From contig JAJZBV010000002.1 in the NCBI GenBank assembly GCA_021851785.1, positions 1-64,000 of the forward strand: a stretch of 64,000 nucleotides of DNA, read 5' to 3'. The notes below the pieces were generated by a model, which saw only the letters and a list, made by a program, of their open reading frames with translations, was not told the DNA's origin and ran no database searches. Positions 25,781 through 31,091 of this stretch are shown here, in pieces. The position numbers were made by a program, and so were the translations under genes. Each line of letters starts with the position of its first letter. Positions within the stretch are counted from its first letter, which is position 1. This DNA comes from Pseudomonadota bacterium (GTDB lineage: Bacteria > Pseudomonadota > Alphaproteobacteria > Acetobacterales > Acetobacteraceae).

Positions 25781-28443
25781 GTTTCGACACCCCCTGGCTG
25801 CTCTCCGCCCTGGCCCTGTTGCCGGTGCTCTGGTGGCTGCTGCGGGTGACGCCGCCTTCGCCGCGCCGCCAGGCGTTCCCGGCGCTCCGGCTGCTCCTCG
25901 GCCTGACCCCCGCCGAGGAAAGTGCCGTGCGCACCCCGCTTTGGCTGCTCGCCCTTCGCCTGCTTGCCGCTGGCCTCGTCATTCTCGGGCTCGCCGGGCC
26001 GATCAGCGGCGCTGGCGGCGCCTTGCCGGGCAGCGGGACGCTGATCCTGGTGATCGACAATTCCTGGGCCGCCGCCGCCGATTGGACGGCGCGCATGGCC
26101 GCCGCCGAGGGGGTACTGGACCGCGCCGCGCAGGCCGGACGCAATGTCGCCGTGCTCGCCACGGCGCCGCTCCCGGATGGCACGGCACCGCGTCTGTCGC
26201 CCGCGATGCCGGTCGTCGATGCGCGGGCGCGCCTCGCCGCGATCACCCCCGAACCCTGGCCGCCGGCGCGCGCTGCGGCGGCGGCGGCGCTCGGCGCGCA
26301 GCATTGGCCGCAAGCCGGCGTCGCCTACCTCCCCGACGGGCTCGCCGCGCCGGATGACCGCGGCTTTGCCGCCGCCCTCGCCGCGGCCGGCCCGGTTCTG
26401 GTCTTGCAGGGCGCCGGGCCGCCGCCCCGGCTCCTGCTGCCGCCCGCGGTCGCCGGCGAATCCCTGGTCGCGCGGCTGGCGCAGCTTCCGGCTCCAGGGC
26501 CAACCCCGCCCGCCGTCATTCTCGCCGAAACCGGCGATGGCCGGGCGCTGGCGCGGGCCGTGATCACGCTCGGGGCGAATGCCGCGGGCGGCGAGCAGGC
26601 CATTCGTCTGCCGCCGGAGATTCGCAATCAGCTTGCCCGCCTGGTGCTCGCAGGACCAGCCTCGGCGGGCGGCGTGGTGCTGCTCGATGAACGCTGGCGC
26701 CGCCGCCCGGTGGGGCTGGCGGCGGCGGATGCGATCGGCGCCGAGGCGCCGCTGATCGGCGATCTCTATTATCTGCGCCGGGCGCTTGTCCCTTACGCCG
26801 AACTCCGCGAGGGTAATCTCACCGATCTGCTGGCGCGGCCGCTCTCGGTGCTCATCCTCGCCGACCGGCCGATCGCCGACGAGGCGGAGGCGGCTTCGGT
26901 TGCCCGCTTCGTCGAAAGTGGTGGCGTCCTGGTTCGCTTCGCCGGCCCGCTGCTCGCCGAACATCCCGATGCGTTTCTCCCGGTGCGGCTGATCGCCGGT
27001 GACCGCGCCATGGGCGGGGCGATGTCCTGGGGGAAGCCCGCGCATCTCGCGCCGTTTCCGTCCGCCTCGCCCTTCGCTGGTCTTTCGGTGCCGGGCGAGG
27101 TGACGGTCGCCCGCCAGGTGCTGGCCGAGCCGACGGCGGCGCTCGCCAGTCAGATCTGGGCGGCGCTCAGCGATGGCACGCCGCTGGTCACCGCGGCGGC
27201 GCGCGGGGCGGGGTGGGTGGTGCTGTTCCATGTCACCGCCAATGCCGATTGGTCCAATCTGCCGCTTTCCGGCCTCTTCATCGACATGCTGCGGCGGATC
27301 GTGCGGCTTTCCGCCGGCATCGCGGCGCCGCTCGACGCCGCCCCGCTCGCCCCGGCCGAAACCCTCGACGGGTTCGGCGTGCTCGGTCCGCCGCCCGCCG
27401 CCGCGCGCCCGCTCGCCGCCGGTGCTTTCGCGACGACGCCGCCTTCGCCGGCTTTCCCGCCGGGGTTTTATGGGCCGGAAAATGACCGGGTCGCGCGCAA
27501 TCTCGCCAACGGCCTGCCGCCGCTCGCCCAAGCCGCCGCCATCGCCGGCGCTTCAGTCGCGGATTACGCAGCACTCGGCCGGACGCGCGCCTTCGGCCCG
27601 CCGCTGCTCGCCGCGGCGCTGGCCCTCCTCGCGCTCGATCTTCTGCTCTCGCTGGTGCTGCGCGGGGTTTTACGGCCGCGATGGGTCGTGCTCGCCCTTC
27701 TGCTCGCGCTCCCGCCGGCGGCGCGGGCGGAGATGCCGGCGGGCGACAATCCGGCGCTGCAAACCCGGCTCGCCTATGTCGTGACCGGCGATGACGAGGT
27801 TGACCGGGTGTCGCGAAGCGGCCTCGCCGGGCTTTCTGATTACGTCAACGAACACACTGCGGCGAGCCTCGCGGCGCCGGTCGCGGTGACGCCGGGAAGT
27901 GACGATCTGAGTTTCTATCCGCTGCTCTATTGGCCGATCACCACGGCGGCGGCGCCGGCTTCGGGCCAGGTTGCGGCGCTCAACGATTACATGAGCCATG
28001 GCGGCATCATCCTGATCGATACCCGCGACGCCGATGCCGGGGCCGAGTTCAACCCCGGCGGTGCTGCGATGCTGCGCCGGCTCGGGGCTGAGCTTGCCAT
28101 TCCGCCGCTCGCCCCGCTCACCGTCGATCACGTGCTGGCGCGGACTTTTTTTCTGCTCCGCGATTTTCCCGGGCGTTACGATGGCGCGACGGTCTGGGTG
28201 CAGCGCGATCAGGACCGCAGCAATGACAGCGTGAGCCCGGTGATCATCGGCGCCAATGACTGGGCGGCGGCCTGGGCGACCGATGCCGACGGCCATCACC
28301 CCTACGCCGTCATCCCCGGCGGCGATCGCCAGCGCCTGCTCGCCTATCGTTTCGGGGTCAATCTGGTGATGTATGCGCTGACCGGGAATTATAAGGGCGA
28401 TCAGGTGCATGTCCCGGCGATTCTGGAGCGGCTCGGGCAATGA
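25777..28443 (+). CDS. BatA/DUF4159-domain membrane protein
   Basis: This 888-residue protein starts with two transmembrane helices typical of BatA N-termini (LLSALALLPVLWWLLRVTPP; LLALRLLAAGLVILGLAGP). A long VWA/GATase-like periplasmic region follows (LILVIDNSWAAAADW at ~88). A third helix pair sits near 605-650. The C-terminal DUF4159 domain starts about 665 (LQTRLAYVVTGDDEVDRVSRSG; HGGIILIDTRDADAG). It is coupled to both neighbours by ATGA. MoxR-DUF58-DUF4159 operons are widespread in alphaproteobacteria with poorly known function. Confidence 0.85.
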   Translation: MSFDTPWLLSALALLPVLWWLLRVTPPSPRRQAFPALRLLLGLTPAEESAVRTPLWLLALRLLAAGLVILGLAGPISGAGGALPGSGTLILVIDNSWAAAADWTARMAAAEGVLDRAAQAGRNVAVLATAPLPDGTAPRLSPAMPVVDARARLAAITPEPWPPARAAAAAALGAQHWPQAGVAYLPDGLAAPDDRGFAAALAAAGPVLVLQGAGPPPRLLLPPAVAGESLVARLAQLPAPGPTPPAVILAETGDGRALARAVITLGANAAGGEQAIRLPPEIRNQLARLVLAGPASAGGVVLLDERWRRRPVGLAAADAIGAEAPLIGDLYYLRRALVPYAELREGNLTDLLARPLSVLILADRPIADEAEAASVARFVESGGVLVRFAGPLLAEHPDAFLPVRLIAGDRAMGGAMSWGKPAHLAPFPSASPFAGLSVPGEVTVARQVLAEPTAALASQIWAALSDGTPLVTAAARGAGWVVLFHVTANADWSNLPLSGLFIDMLRRIVRLSAGIAAPLDAAPLAPAETLDGFGVLGPPPAAARPLAAGAFATTPPSPAFPPGFYGPENDRVARNLANGLPPLAQAAAIAGASVADYAALGRTRAFGPPLLAAALALLALDLLLSLVLRGVLRPRWVVLALLLALPPAARAEMPAGDNPALQTRLAYVVTGDDEVDRVSRSGLAGLSDYVNEHTAASLAAPVAVTPGSDDLSFYPLLYWPITTAAAPASGQVAALNDYMSHGGIILIDTRDADAGAEFNPGGAAMLRRLGAELAIPPLAPLTVDHVLARTFFLLRDFPGRYDGATVWVQRDQDRSNDSVSPVIIGANDWAAAWATDADGHHPYAVIPGGDRQRLLAYRFGVNLVMYALTGNYKGDQVHVPAILERLGQ

Positions 28444-30521
28444 CCGCGATGAACACGCTCGCCGCACTCCGCTTCGCGCCGCTGGTGCCGCTCTGGCTGC
28501 TCGGCGTGCTGGCGCTCGCGGCGCTTGCCGCCCTCGCCCCGGCGCTGTGGCGGCGGGCGCGGGGGGTGGGGTGGCGCCTCGCCGCGTTTCTCGTGCTGCT
28601 GCTGTGGCTCGCAGGTCCCCGCCTGGTCCAGGAAACCCGCCAGGGCCTGAGCGACATCGCTTTGCTGGTGATCGACCACAGCGCCTCGATGACTATCGGC
28701 AACCGCGCCGCACTCGCCGAGGCGGCGCGGGCGCGGCTCGTGGACGCGGCCGGAAAATTCCCCGATCTCGAACTTCGCAGCGTCATCGTCCCCGATACCG
28801 GGCATGACGGGACGCGGCTTTTCGCCGCCACCGAGCACGCGCTCGCCGATATTCCCGAGAGCCGCCGCGCCGGCATCATCGCGATCACCGATGGCGAGGT
28901 CCATGACATCCCGGCCAAACCGGATTGGGGAGGGGCGCCGCTCCAGGTTCTGATCCCGGCCAAGGGCGAGGAGACCGATCGCAGCCTCCGCGTCATCGAG
29001 GCGCCGGGGTATGGGATCGTCGGCCATGCGGTCGGTTTGCGGGTCGAGATCGACGATCTCGGGGTTGCCCACCCGGCGCGCGAGGCGACGCTGACGCTGC
29101 GCCGCGACGGCGATCCGCCGCGGGTTCTGGAGGCACCGATCGGCCGCCCCTATGACATCGAAATTCCGATCACCCGCGCGGGCCCGACGGTGATCGATCT
29201 CCAGGCCGAGCCCTTGCCGGGGGCGGTGACGGCGCTGAATGCCCGCGCCGTCGTGACCATCAACGGCGTGCGCGACCGGCTGCGCGTGCTTTTGGTCTCC
29301 GGCGAGCCGCATCCCGGCGAGCGCACCTGGCGGCGGCTTTTGAAAGCCGATCCGGCGGTCGATCTGGTGCATTTCACCATCCTCCGCCCGCCCGAGAAGG
29401 ACGATCTGACGCCGCTCAACGAACTCGCCCTGATCGCGTTTCCGGTGCGCGAATTGTTCCAGGTCAAGATCAGCCAGTTCGATCTGATTATTCTCGACCG
29501 CTTCCAGAGCCGTGGCATTCTGCCGATGATTTATCTCCACAACATCGCCGATTACGTCCGCCGGGGCGGCGCGCTCCTGATGAGTGTCGGGCCGGAATTC
29601 GTCGGCCCCGGCAGCCTGGCCGCGACCCCGCTCGCCGATATCCTGCCGGCCGAGCCGGGGGAGGGGGATGCGGCGGTGGTCGAAGGCGCGTTCCGCCCGC
29701 AGGTGACGGCGCTCGGCGAGCGTCATCCGGTGACCGCCGATCTCCCCGGCTTCCTCGCCGGCGCGCCGCCGTCCTGGGGGCCCTGGTATCGCCATATCGC
29801 GGTCGGTGACGTGCATGGCCAGGAGGTGATGCGGACGCCGGACGGCCAGCCGCTGCTGCTCCTCGATCATGTCGGCAAGGGCCGTGTCGCGCTGCTGCTC
29901 TCCGATCAGATCTGGCTGTGGTCGCGTGGGCACCAGGGCGGCGGGCCGCAGGCGGAGTTGCTGAAGCGGATCGCGCATTGGCTGATGAAGGAGCCCGAGC
30001 TTGAGGAAAACGCGCTCACCGCCCGCATCGGGGAGGGCCGTCTCAGCATCGAAAGCCGCACCCTCGCGGCCCAATCGCCGGGCGCGGCGAGGGTGACCGA
30101 CCCCGAGGGCAAAACCTCGGAGATCGCGCTTGCCGAGGCCGGGCCGGGGCGGGCGCAGGCGACGCTGCCGGCGAGCGAGCCTGGCGTCTGGCGGGTCGAT
30201 GAGGGCGGGCGCACCGCTTTCGCCGCAGCCAGCGGGGGCGACCCGCTGGAAATGGCCGATCTCCGCGCGACGGCGACCAAGCTTGCGCCGTTGGCCGCGG
30301 CGAGCGGCGGCGGCATCCACTGGCTCGACCCCGACGGCGCGCCGGCGCTCCGCCGCACCGAACCCGACGCCCGCCAGACCGGGGCGCATTGGCTTGGTCT
30401 GCGCCGCAATCACGATCACATCGTCACCGGCATCGCGGCGCTGCCGCTCTTGCCGAGCTTCGTCGCATTGGCGATCATTCTCGGGCTCATGCTCATCGCC
30501 TGGCGGGAGGAGGGCCGGTGA
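28440..30521 (+). CDS. Large VWA/glutamine-amidotransferase-like membrane protein of the MoxR operon
   Basis: This 693-residue protein has two N-terminal transmembrane helices (~13-65), a VWA-like segment with a MIDAS-type motif (LLVIDHSASMTIGN, ~77-90), and a mid region (LRVLLVSGEPHPGERTWRRLL, ~281-301). A class I amidotransferase-like fold (YVRRGGALLMSVGPEFVG) follows, and a final helix lies at ~670-690. It overlaps the DUF4159 gene by ATGA and is the last gene of the coupled module. Its role is presumably envelope integrity or complex assembly, which is inference. Confidence 0.8.
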   Translation: MTAMNTLAALRFAPLVPLWLLGVLALAALAALAPALWRRARGVGWRLAAFLVLLLWLAGPRLVQETRQGLSDIALLVIDHSASMTIGNRAALAEAARARLVDAAGKFPDLELRSVIVPDTGHDGTRLFAATEHALADIPESRRAGIIAITDGEVHDIPAKPDWGGAPLQVLIPAKGEETDRSLRVIEAPGYGIVGHAVGLRVEIDDLGVAHPAREATLTLRRDGDPPRVLEAPIGRPYDIEIPITRAGPTVIDLQAEPLPGAVTALNARAVVTINGVRDRLRVLLVSGEPHPGERTWRRLLKADPAVDLVHFTILRPPEKDDLTPLNELALIAFPVRELFQVKISQFDLIILDRFQSRGILPMIYLHNIADYVRRGGALLMSVGPEFVGPGSLAATPLADILPAEPGEGDAAVVEGAFRPQVTALGERHPVTADLPGFLAGAPPSWGPWYRHIAVGDVHGQEVMRTPDGQPLLLLDHVGKGRVALLLSDQIWLWSRGHQGGGPQAELLKRIAHWLMKEPELEENALTARIGEGRLSIESRTLAAQSPGAARVTDPEGKTSEIALAEAGPGRAQATLPASEPGVWRVDEGGRTAFAAASGGDPLEMADLRATATKLAPLAAASGGGIHWLDPDGAPALRRTEPDARQTGAHWLGLRRNHDHIVTGIAALPLLPSFVALAIILGLMLIAWREEGR

Positions 30522-30701
30522 GCGGCGCGCGCGATCGCCATCGAGAGCGGGGAGGGTTGTGTCTTCCAGAACGTCGATTCCCCTGAACGCGGCACGTCAC
30601 CCGGCGCCTCGCCGCCATGGCCGGCGCTGCTCGCGCTGATCGGTTTCGTCGGGCTCTGTCTGCTGGTTGGCGGCGCCTCCGGCGCGGTCACCGAGATTTC
30701 G

Positions 30702-31091
30702 GTGCATGACTGGTACCCCTCGCTCACCCGCCCGCCCGGCACGCCCGCCAACCGGGTTTTCCCGCTGGTCTGGTCGGCGCTCTATGTGCTGATGGGCGTT
30801 GCCGCGTGGCGGATCTGGCGCGAGCCGCGCGTTCTTGCCCACCGGCGGGCGCGGGCGCTCAGCCTCTGGGGCTGGCAATTGCTGTGCAACGCGCTCTGGA
30901 CGCCGGCGTTTTTCGGGCTCGAAAGCCCGCTCGCCGGGCTCGCCGTGATGGCCGCGCTGATGGTCATGATTGCCGTCACCGTCATCGCTTTTTCACGTAT
31001 CGATCGGCTTGCCACGGGGCTGATGCTGCCTTATGCGGGCTGGGTGCTTTATGCCGCGTATCTCAACGCCGGGTTTTGGTGGCTGAACTGA
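30702..31091 (+). CDS. tspO: TspO/MBR-family protein with missing or shifted N-terminus
   Basis: TspO is a five-helix membrane tryptophan-rich sensory protein binding porphyrins. The conserved core is present: WYPSLTRPPGTPANRVFPLVWSALY split over ~4-28, LSLWGWQLLCNALWTPAFFG (~53-72) and YAGWVLYAAYLNAGFWWLN at the end. The 129-residue ORF starts at a GTG. The expected first helix (LLALIGFVGLCLLVGGASG, bases ~630-686) is in the same frame, yet between 30522 and 30702 that frame has no ATG, GTG or TTG. Either a non-standard CTG start (30627/30636), a frameshift or a sequencing error is involved. Confidence 0.75.
   Translation: MHDWYPSLTRPPGTPANRVFPLVWSALYVLMGVAAWRIWREPRVLAHRRARALSLWGWQLLCNALWTPAFFGLESPLAGLAVMAALMVMIAVTVIAFSRIDRLATGLMLPYAGWVLYAAYLNAGFWWLN

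Follow-up and report, generated by a model that had tools for sequence, protein, structure and literature searches.

A conserved Shine-Dalgarno-linked element at a putative non-canonical start of tspO in the family Acetobacteraceae

Conserved non-canonical start codons have, to our knowledge, rarely been documented in bacteria. The closest described case is sigR of Streptomyces, where a strong Shine-Dalgarno (SD) sequence precedes a start codon that is GTC in 32 and GTT in 2 of 34 species (PMC5472188). The GTC start was demonstrated by mutation, is repressed by IF3, and was the first to be documented to the knowledge of its authors (PMC5472188). The same paper recounts that infC starts with AUU in E. 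coli and with ATC in Streptomyces. The optimal distance from GGAGG to the start codon in E. coli is ~5–6 nt (converted from PMC9841429), and a GUG at short spacing is a poor initiator there (PMC9841429). The window, meaning the whole 64,000-nt stretch of DNA analyzed here (contig JAJZBV010000002.1, positions 1–64,000), contains a tspO gene whose frame offers no ATG, GTG, or TTG where a start is expected. We compared this gene with its relatives and estimate a probability of about 0.5 that translation of tspO in this family begins at a conserved non-canonical start, most likely GTC at 30561–30563.

The tspO frame and its missing start

All features are on the forward strand. In the open reading frames of the window, a TGA at 30519–30521 lies directly upstream of the tspO frame (frame 0), which is open from 30522 to 31091. 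The full frame matches the TspO/MBR profile PF03073 with an E value of 1.7e-45 (154.8 bits against a cut-off of 24), and protein residues 42–187 align to profile positions 1–145 of 145. Window sequence and translation agree with the initial annotation that no in-frame ATG, GTG, or TTG occurs between the upstream stop and the predicted first transmembrane segment (TM1; LLALIGFVGLCLLVGGASG, 30627–30683), which is encoded upstream of GTG 30702, the first such codon in the frame. TM1 was placed from the translation and from the profile coverage of the long and short forms. The form starting at GTG 30702 would be without TM1 and the start of the domain, because its match covers profile positions 21–145 only. 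Conservation of this short form had been named as a refuting condition, but the codon homologous to GTG 30702 is CTG in one relative from the genus (L002) and ATC in another (L007). Two GTGs proposed as starts in other frames, at 30518 (overlapping the stop) and at 30559 (after GGAGGG), are both present and out of frame. If GTC is the start, the predicted tspO coding sequence spans 30561–31091 including the stop and encodes 176 aa.

The upstream gene (28440–30521, 693 aa) has a match to PF07090 below the cut-off (20.4 bits against 27) and is, at its end, in the same frame as tspO. In the window, the UGA of this gene is in frame with tspO, and readthrough of it was considered. It does not hold up as a general mechanism: at other loci the stop is TAA or TAG, or the upstream frame is a different one.

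A conserved element across the family

TspO matches at an E value of 0.001 were found in 120 of 200 family genomes and 188 of 395 order genomes, and further loci were fetched by place. Two duplicates were dropped from 101 collected loci, leaving 99 distinct family loci. The set represents part of the matches, weaker and contig-edge ones being left out (e.g., G031, G079, G315, G349, G352, G407, G411, and G431). Body codon usage and the scan for upstream starts in frames 0 and 2 were counted on 88 loci that include two (L048 and L070) later dropped as false calls, which gives 86. Genera were counted by hand from locus labels, and the loci are related, so they are not independent trials. A search of plasmids returned 134 records, all below 60% identity and uninformative on the start.

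In the window, an SD core (GGAGG, 30551–30555) is followed by an element (TGTGTCTTCC, 30558–30567; family pattern YGTGYYTTCC) that contains the out-of-frame GTG (30559–30561), an in-frame GTC (30561–30563), and an in-frame TTC (30564–30566). This arrangement of SD tract, 0–3 nt, out-of-frame GTG, two pyrimidines, and in-frame TTC, TTT, or TTG is found, as such or in a near variant, at the N-terminus of the frame in 86 of the 99 family loci, from 38 genera. A run of at least four SD bases is present in all 86, and GTG in 81; the exceptions are CTG in L050 and L053 and GTA in L058, L079, and L114. L079 and L114, from one genus, have another GTG two bases upstream that overlaps the SD. The triplet at the GTC position is GTC in 63 loci, GTT in 4, ATC in 1, ATT in 1, GCC in 12, GCT in 2, GAT in 2, and ACT in 1. 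Its third base is a pyrimidine in every locus, and it is never GTG or ATG (0/86). The codon that follows is TTC in 81, TTT in 4, and TTG in 1.

The site in each locus was picked by likeness to the element and SD, so these counts are conditioned on that choice, and four scan controls were therefore run. The N-terminal region was scanned in frame 0 for GTGTCTTCC, a preceding pyrimidine, and a nearby SD, with a maximum score of 9.5. Controls were the TspO body (n = 99), the two other frames (n = 198), mononucleotide shuffles (n = 99), and TspO loci outside the family (n = 39). Scores of at least 9 were reached by 56 of 99 family loci and by none of the controls (0/99, 0/198, 0/99, and 0/39, respectively). 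At a score of at least 8 the counts were 74 of 99 versus 0, 2, 4, and 0, and at a score of at least 7 they were 83 of 99 versus 15, 18, 16, and 5. Judged by these scans, the element occurs more often than chance would produce.

Canonical starts are frequently missing where the element is present. No in-frame ATG, GTG, or TTG occurs within 25 codons upstream in 59 of the 86 element-bearing loci, or back to the upstream stop in 54. Comparison with relatives, which the initial annotation had recommended, further identified 29 loci from 15 genera that have none between the upstream stop and TM1, and 28 of these 29 carry the GTG. The gap between stop and TTC is five codons or fewer in ten loci, and in L085 it is just CGT GTC. 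An ordinary start is possible in 32 of the 86, which do have some in-frame canonical codon upstream of the element (27 of them within 25 codons). A sequencing error, one of the explanations first offered, is excluded in practice, the feature being common to many separate genomes; on this comparison, the missing start is neither a sequence error nor a single broken gene.

Within the genus, tspO was found in all six genomes. Five loci from four other genomes (L002, L003, L004, L005, and L007) likewise have no in-frame start. In L006 and L014, which are one gene, TTGs do occur in frame upstream, yet the SD and element are kept. Two tspO copies, each bearing the element, occur in one genome bin (G004), reflecting either duplication or a mixed bin; L004 is 89% and L007 80% identical to the window. 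Two genus genomes also encode a second TspO, a distant one (L008 and L009; 35% identity) with an ordinary in-frame ATG.

Thirteen family loci are without the element. Eleven have an in-frame ATG, one (L105) has a GTG, and L065 is ambiguous, with an ATG between and a TTG further up. An MxxxAFQK group (L047, L055, L062, and L101) has a normal ATG start four codons upstream, and the base before Phe is free (GCT, GCG, GCC, and GCA). On a quick tree of the 99 proteins, the presence or absence of the element must change five times, and well-supported branches force two of these changes. Outside the family, a canonical in-frame codon lies upstream of TM1 in 38 of 39 TspO loci; L016, at a contig end, is unreadable. 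One family locus (L086) groups weakly with the TspO of other families in a careful tree (81/74); it still bears the element and has an in-frame GTG three codons before TTC.

Codon constraint and Shine-Dalgarno spacing

For 23 disjoint pairs of equal-length loci, we counted the differences at each frame-0 codon position (1/2/3), with coordinates relative to TTC. Upstream of the SD (−36 to −15) they number 85/82/77, with no periodicity. Counts are 10/15/18 from −15 to −6, 12/3/3 from −6 to 0, 0/0/1 in the TTC codon itself, and 27/16/64 in the nine codons 3' of it. The codon-position bias starts right after TTC, so frame 0 is translated from there. tspO is thus already in frame at this point, and its start most likely falls within 30559–30566. 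None of the 23 pairs differs at 30559, 30560, 30564, or 30565, one differs at −3, and three differ at each of −2 and −1; positions −6 and −7 each vary in 11 of the 23 pairs. By this pairwise measure, the out-of-frame GTG is conserved as a unit. The triplet preceding TTC is one for Val in 67 loci and one for Ala in 14, and all 81 have a pyrimidine as third base, although in the protein bodies of 88 loci GTG accounts for 522 of the 1153 Val codons and GCG for 943 of the 2089 Ala codons. This indicates a constraint on the nucleotides beyond the protein alone.

These results narrow the explanations first proposed. A CTG start is not supported, as the first in-frame CTG (30627) sits at TM1 and frame-0 codon constraint begins ~60 nt upstream, beside the SD; the broader suggestion of a non-canonical start survives, centered on the flagged GTG 30559. 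Initiation at an ordinary downstream codon (CTG 30627, GTG 30702, or another internal start) would give a shorter protein and draws on GTG 30702 being the first canonical start of the frame and on the ATG, GTG, or TTG found between element and TM1 in 25 of the 54 loci that have no upstream start. It is very unlikely, given that GTG 30702 is unconserved and would cost TM1, that codon constraint acts on the stretch before CTG 30627, and that 29 of 86 loci have no canonical codon at all before TM1. As for a frameshift, the onset of codon constraint excludes a shift further into the gene, and a register change at the initiation codon itself survives.

Entry from the start at 30518 (frame 2), with a prfB-like +1 shift into tspO either at the YUU-C of the element or at CCC-UGA (30581–30586), is extremely improbable. 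Six of seven genus loci have an ATG or GTG in frame 2 that overlaps the upstream stop, and in those six the frame stays open as far as a TGA located 20 nt beyond where TTC begins. The CCC-UGA version was attractive within the genus and fell with L014 and the wider family: conservation of frame 0 is evident before CCC-UGA is reached, and this holds in L014 too, where that UGA is absent. As a general mechanism, frame-2 entry is contradicted by 18 of 88 loci in which neither frame 2 nor frame 0 offers a start; within the element of L050 and L053, a stop interrupts frame 2. In the genus, the short frame-2 ORF (30518–30586) overlaps the upstream stop, ends at a conserved TGA, and would encode MSG...CLPERRFP or similar (22 codons here). 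Its first codon is GTG in the window and ATG in L002, L003, L004, L005, and L007, and it may couple tspO to the upstream gene.

The distance from GGAGG to TTC is 5, 6, 7, and 8 nt in 10, 21, 25, and 30 of the 86 element-bearing loci, respectively, which leaves 0–3 nt to GTG and 2–5 nt to GTC. A crude control set, 38 first-ATG ORFs no shorter than 200 aa taken from the window, L010, L011, and L014, includes 30 spaced at 5–10 nt. Compared with the E. coli optimum, the spacing in tspO would thus bring GTC or TTC close to the P site, and not GTG. Hairpins between the SD and the pyrimidine tract fold in many loci, are often weak, and are often missing from longer folds.

The initiating triplet and its described counterparts

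In the favored reading, the strong SD would bring the ribosome to YGTGYYTTCC, and initiation at this element would set the tspO frame, though the frame offers no ATG, GTG, or TTG. The initiator tRNA would probably occupy the in-frame GTC, whose G is shared with the out-of-frame GTG, and the product would be fMet-Phe-Gln-Asn..., with TTC encoding Phe 2. Pointing to GTC are the loci free of upstream starts, the onset of constraint, the sigR precedent, and a third base that is always a pyrimidine here and free in the MxxxAFQK group. Against it, 17 of 86 loci have GCC, GCT, GAT, or ACT instead, with no middle T, and 11 of those 17 lack any in-frame canonical start in the 25 codons upstream; GTC is therefore not the start everywhere. 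Its 2–5 nt from GGAGG is also shorter than in most control ORFs, and a plain GTC start leaves the conservation of the out-of-frame GTG (81/86) unexplained.

The TTC, at 5–8 nt, agrees better with the control spacing, and the in-frame UUC (30564–30566), a near-cognate of UUG, could itself be the initiator, giving Met-Gln-Asn. The position is TTC, TTT, or TTG in 86 of 86 loci, its only TTG (L058), a canonical start, coincides with loss of the GTG, and its third base differs in 1 of 23 pairs versus 30 of 146 Phe/Phe codons in the protein body. Phe also stands at the same place in L047, L055, L062, and L101, where the upstream ATG start means that it must be internal. A UUC start again does not explain the conserved GTG, and precedent for one was not found in the literature examined. 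We regard it as quite unlikely.

That GTG would be explained if fMet-tRNA paired with the out-of-frame GUG at 30559, too near the SD, and GUGYY acted as a five-base start signal. Strain would then shift the message by two bases and bring UUC 30564 into place as the second codon (Met-Phe-Gln); in a variant, the next codon would overlap by one base (Met-Val-Phe-Gln). No canonical start codon other than GTG is kept (it is present in 81 of 86 loci and in 28 of the 29 with no in-frame start before TM1), 18 of the 88 scanned loci have no canonical upstream start in frame 0 or frame 2, and the 0–3 nt between SD and GTG is a short spacing. Devaraj and Fredrick (2010), going by the title, reportedly linked short SD spacing to weakened P-site pairing and +1 shifting. 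However, GTA replaces GTG in L079, L114, and L058 and CTG does so in L050 and L053, short-spaced GUG initiates poorly in E. coli, and proof of a two-base shift at initiation was not found in the literature examined. A CUG start combined with a variant initiator tRNA gave an apparent +2 toeprint that cryo-EM did not bear out (PMC11497404). Such a register change is a tentative alternative that we consider unlikely.

Under the favored GTC start, the weak start is probably kept on purpose. We infer that it would hold TspO low, to some benefit, and place it under control by initiation fidelity (IF3), as for sigR and infC; any part that the GTG plays is likewise an inference. If so, TspO output may be kept low or regulated via initiation fidelity, and start-calling limited to ATG, GTG, and TTG would misplace the tspO start in these genomes. 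The candidate start spans 38 genera of one family, and its retained out-of-frame GTG offers a direct way to test whether the position of the SD, and not the start codon, can set the frame of a bacterial ribosome.

We also looked for such starts beyond tspO. A genome-wide class was not shown: a looser pattern gave 36 matches in six genus genomes versus 18 in a reversed control, and a stricter pattern gave 18 matches, spread over 17 of 60 family genomes, versus 9 control matches; judged by position, 6 of the 18 fall at tspO. No second initiator tRNA (non-CAU, with a 1:72 mismatch) was seen among 42 distinct tRNAs of the window's own genome, whose ends were judged by eye and whose anticodon stems were compared with a pattern too loose to be decisive. 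C1 stands against A72 in only one tRNA-Met(CAT), with about five tRNAs that have no clean CCA end left unjudged. By title, none of the papers found on TspO start codons, frameshifts, translation initiation, and Acetobacteraceae addresses this start (subscription journals and supplements were outside the search), and TspO is unnamed in the main text of the 2013 GeneTack paper.

Among described systems, tspO resembles sigR in having a largely conserved in-frame GTC or GTT with no ATG, GTG, or TTG to serve, a strong purine SD just upstream, and a GTG near the SD that misleads annotation (PMC5472188). It differs in that GTC or GTT occupies the position in 67 of 86 loci and GCC, GCT, GAT, or ACT in 17, the distance from GGAGG to GTC is 2–5 nt versus 8 in sigR (our count from the quoted codons), the GTG is out of frame and conserved, and the start is proposed from sequence, whereas that of sigR was proved by experiment. 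infC, as told in the same paper, has a conserved non-canonical start under initiation-factor control, as tspO would, but it is another gene with another triplet, the near-cognate AUU or AUC, and serves autoregulation of IF3 itself. The +1 programmed frameshift of prfB likewise has an SD a few bases from the decoding site, and in tspO YUU-C follows; tspO differs in having no upstream frame common to all loci and no stop codon at the shift site, and its register change would fall at the first codon. Ambiguous AUGUG and GUGUG starts also have overlapping triplets two bases apart, with SD position deciding which is used (PMC9841429). Both triplets are canonical in those starts, whereas the in-frame triplet of tspO is GTC.
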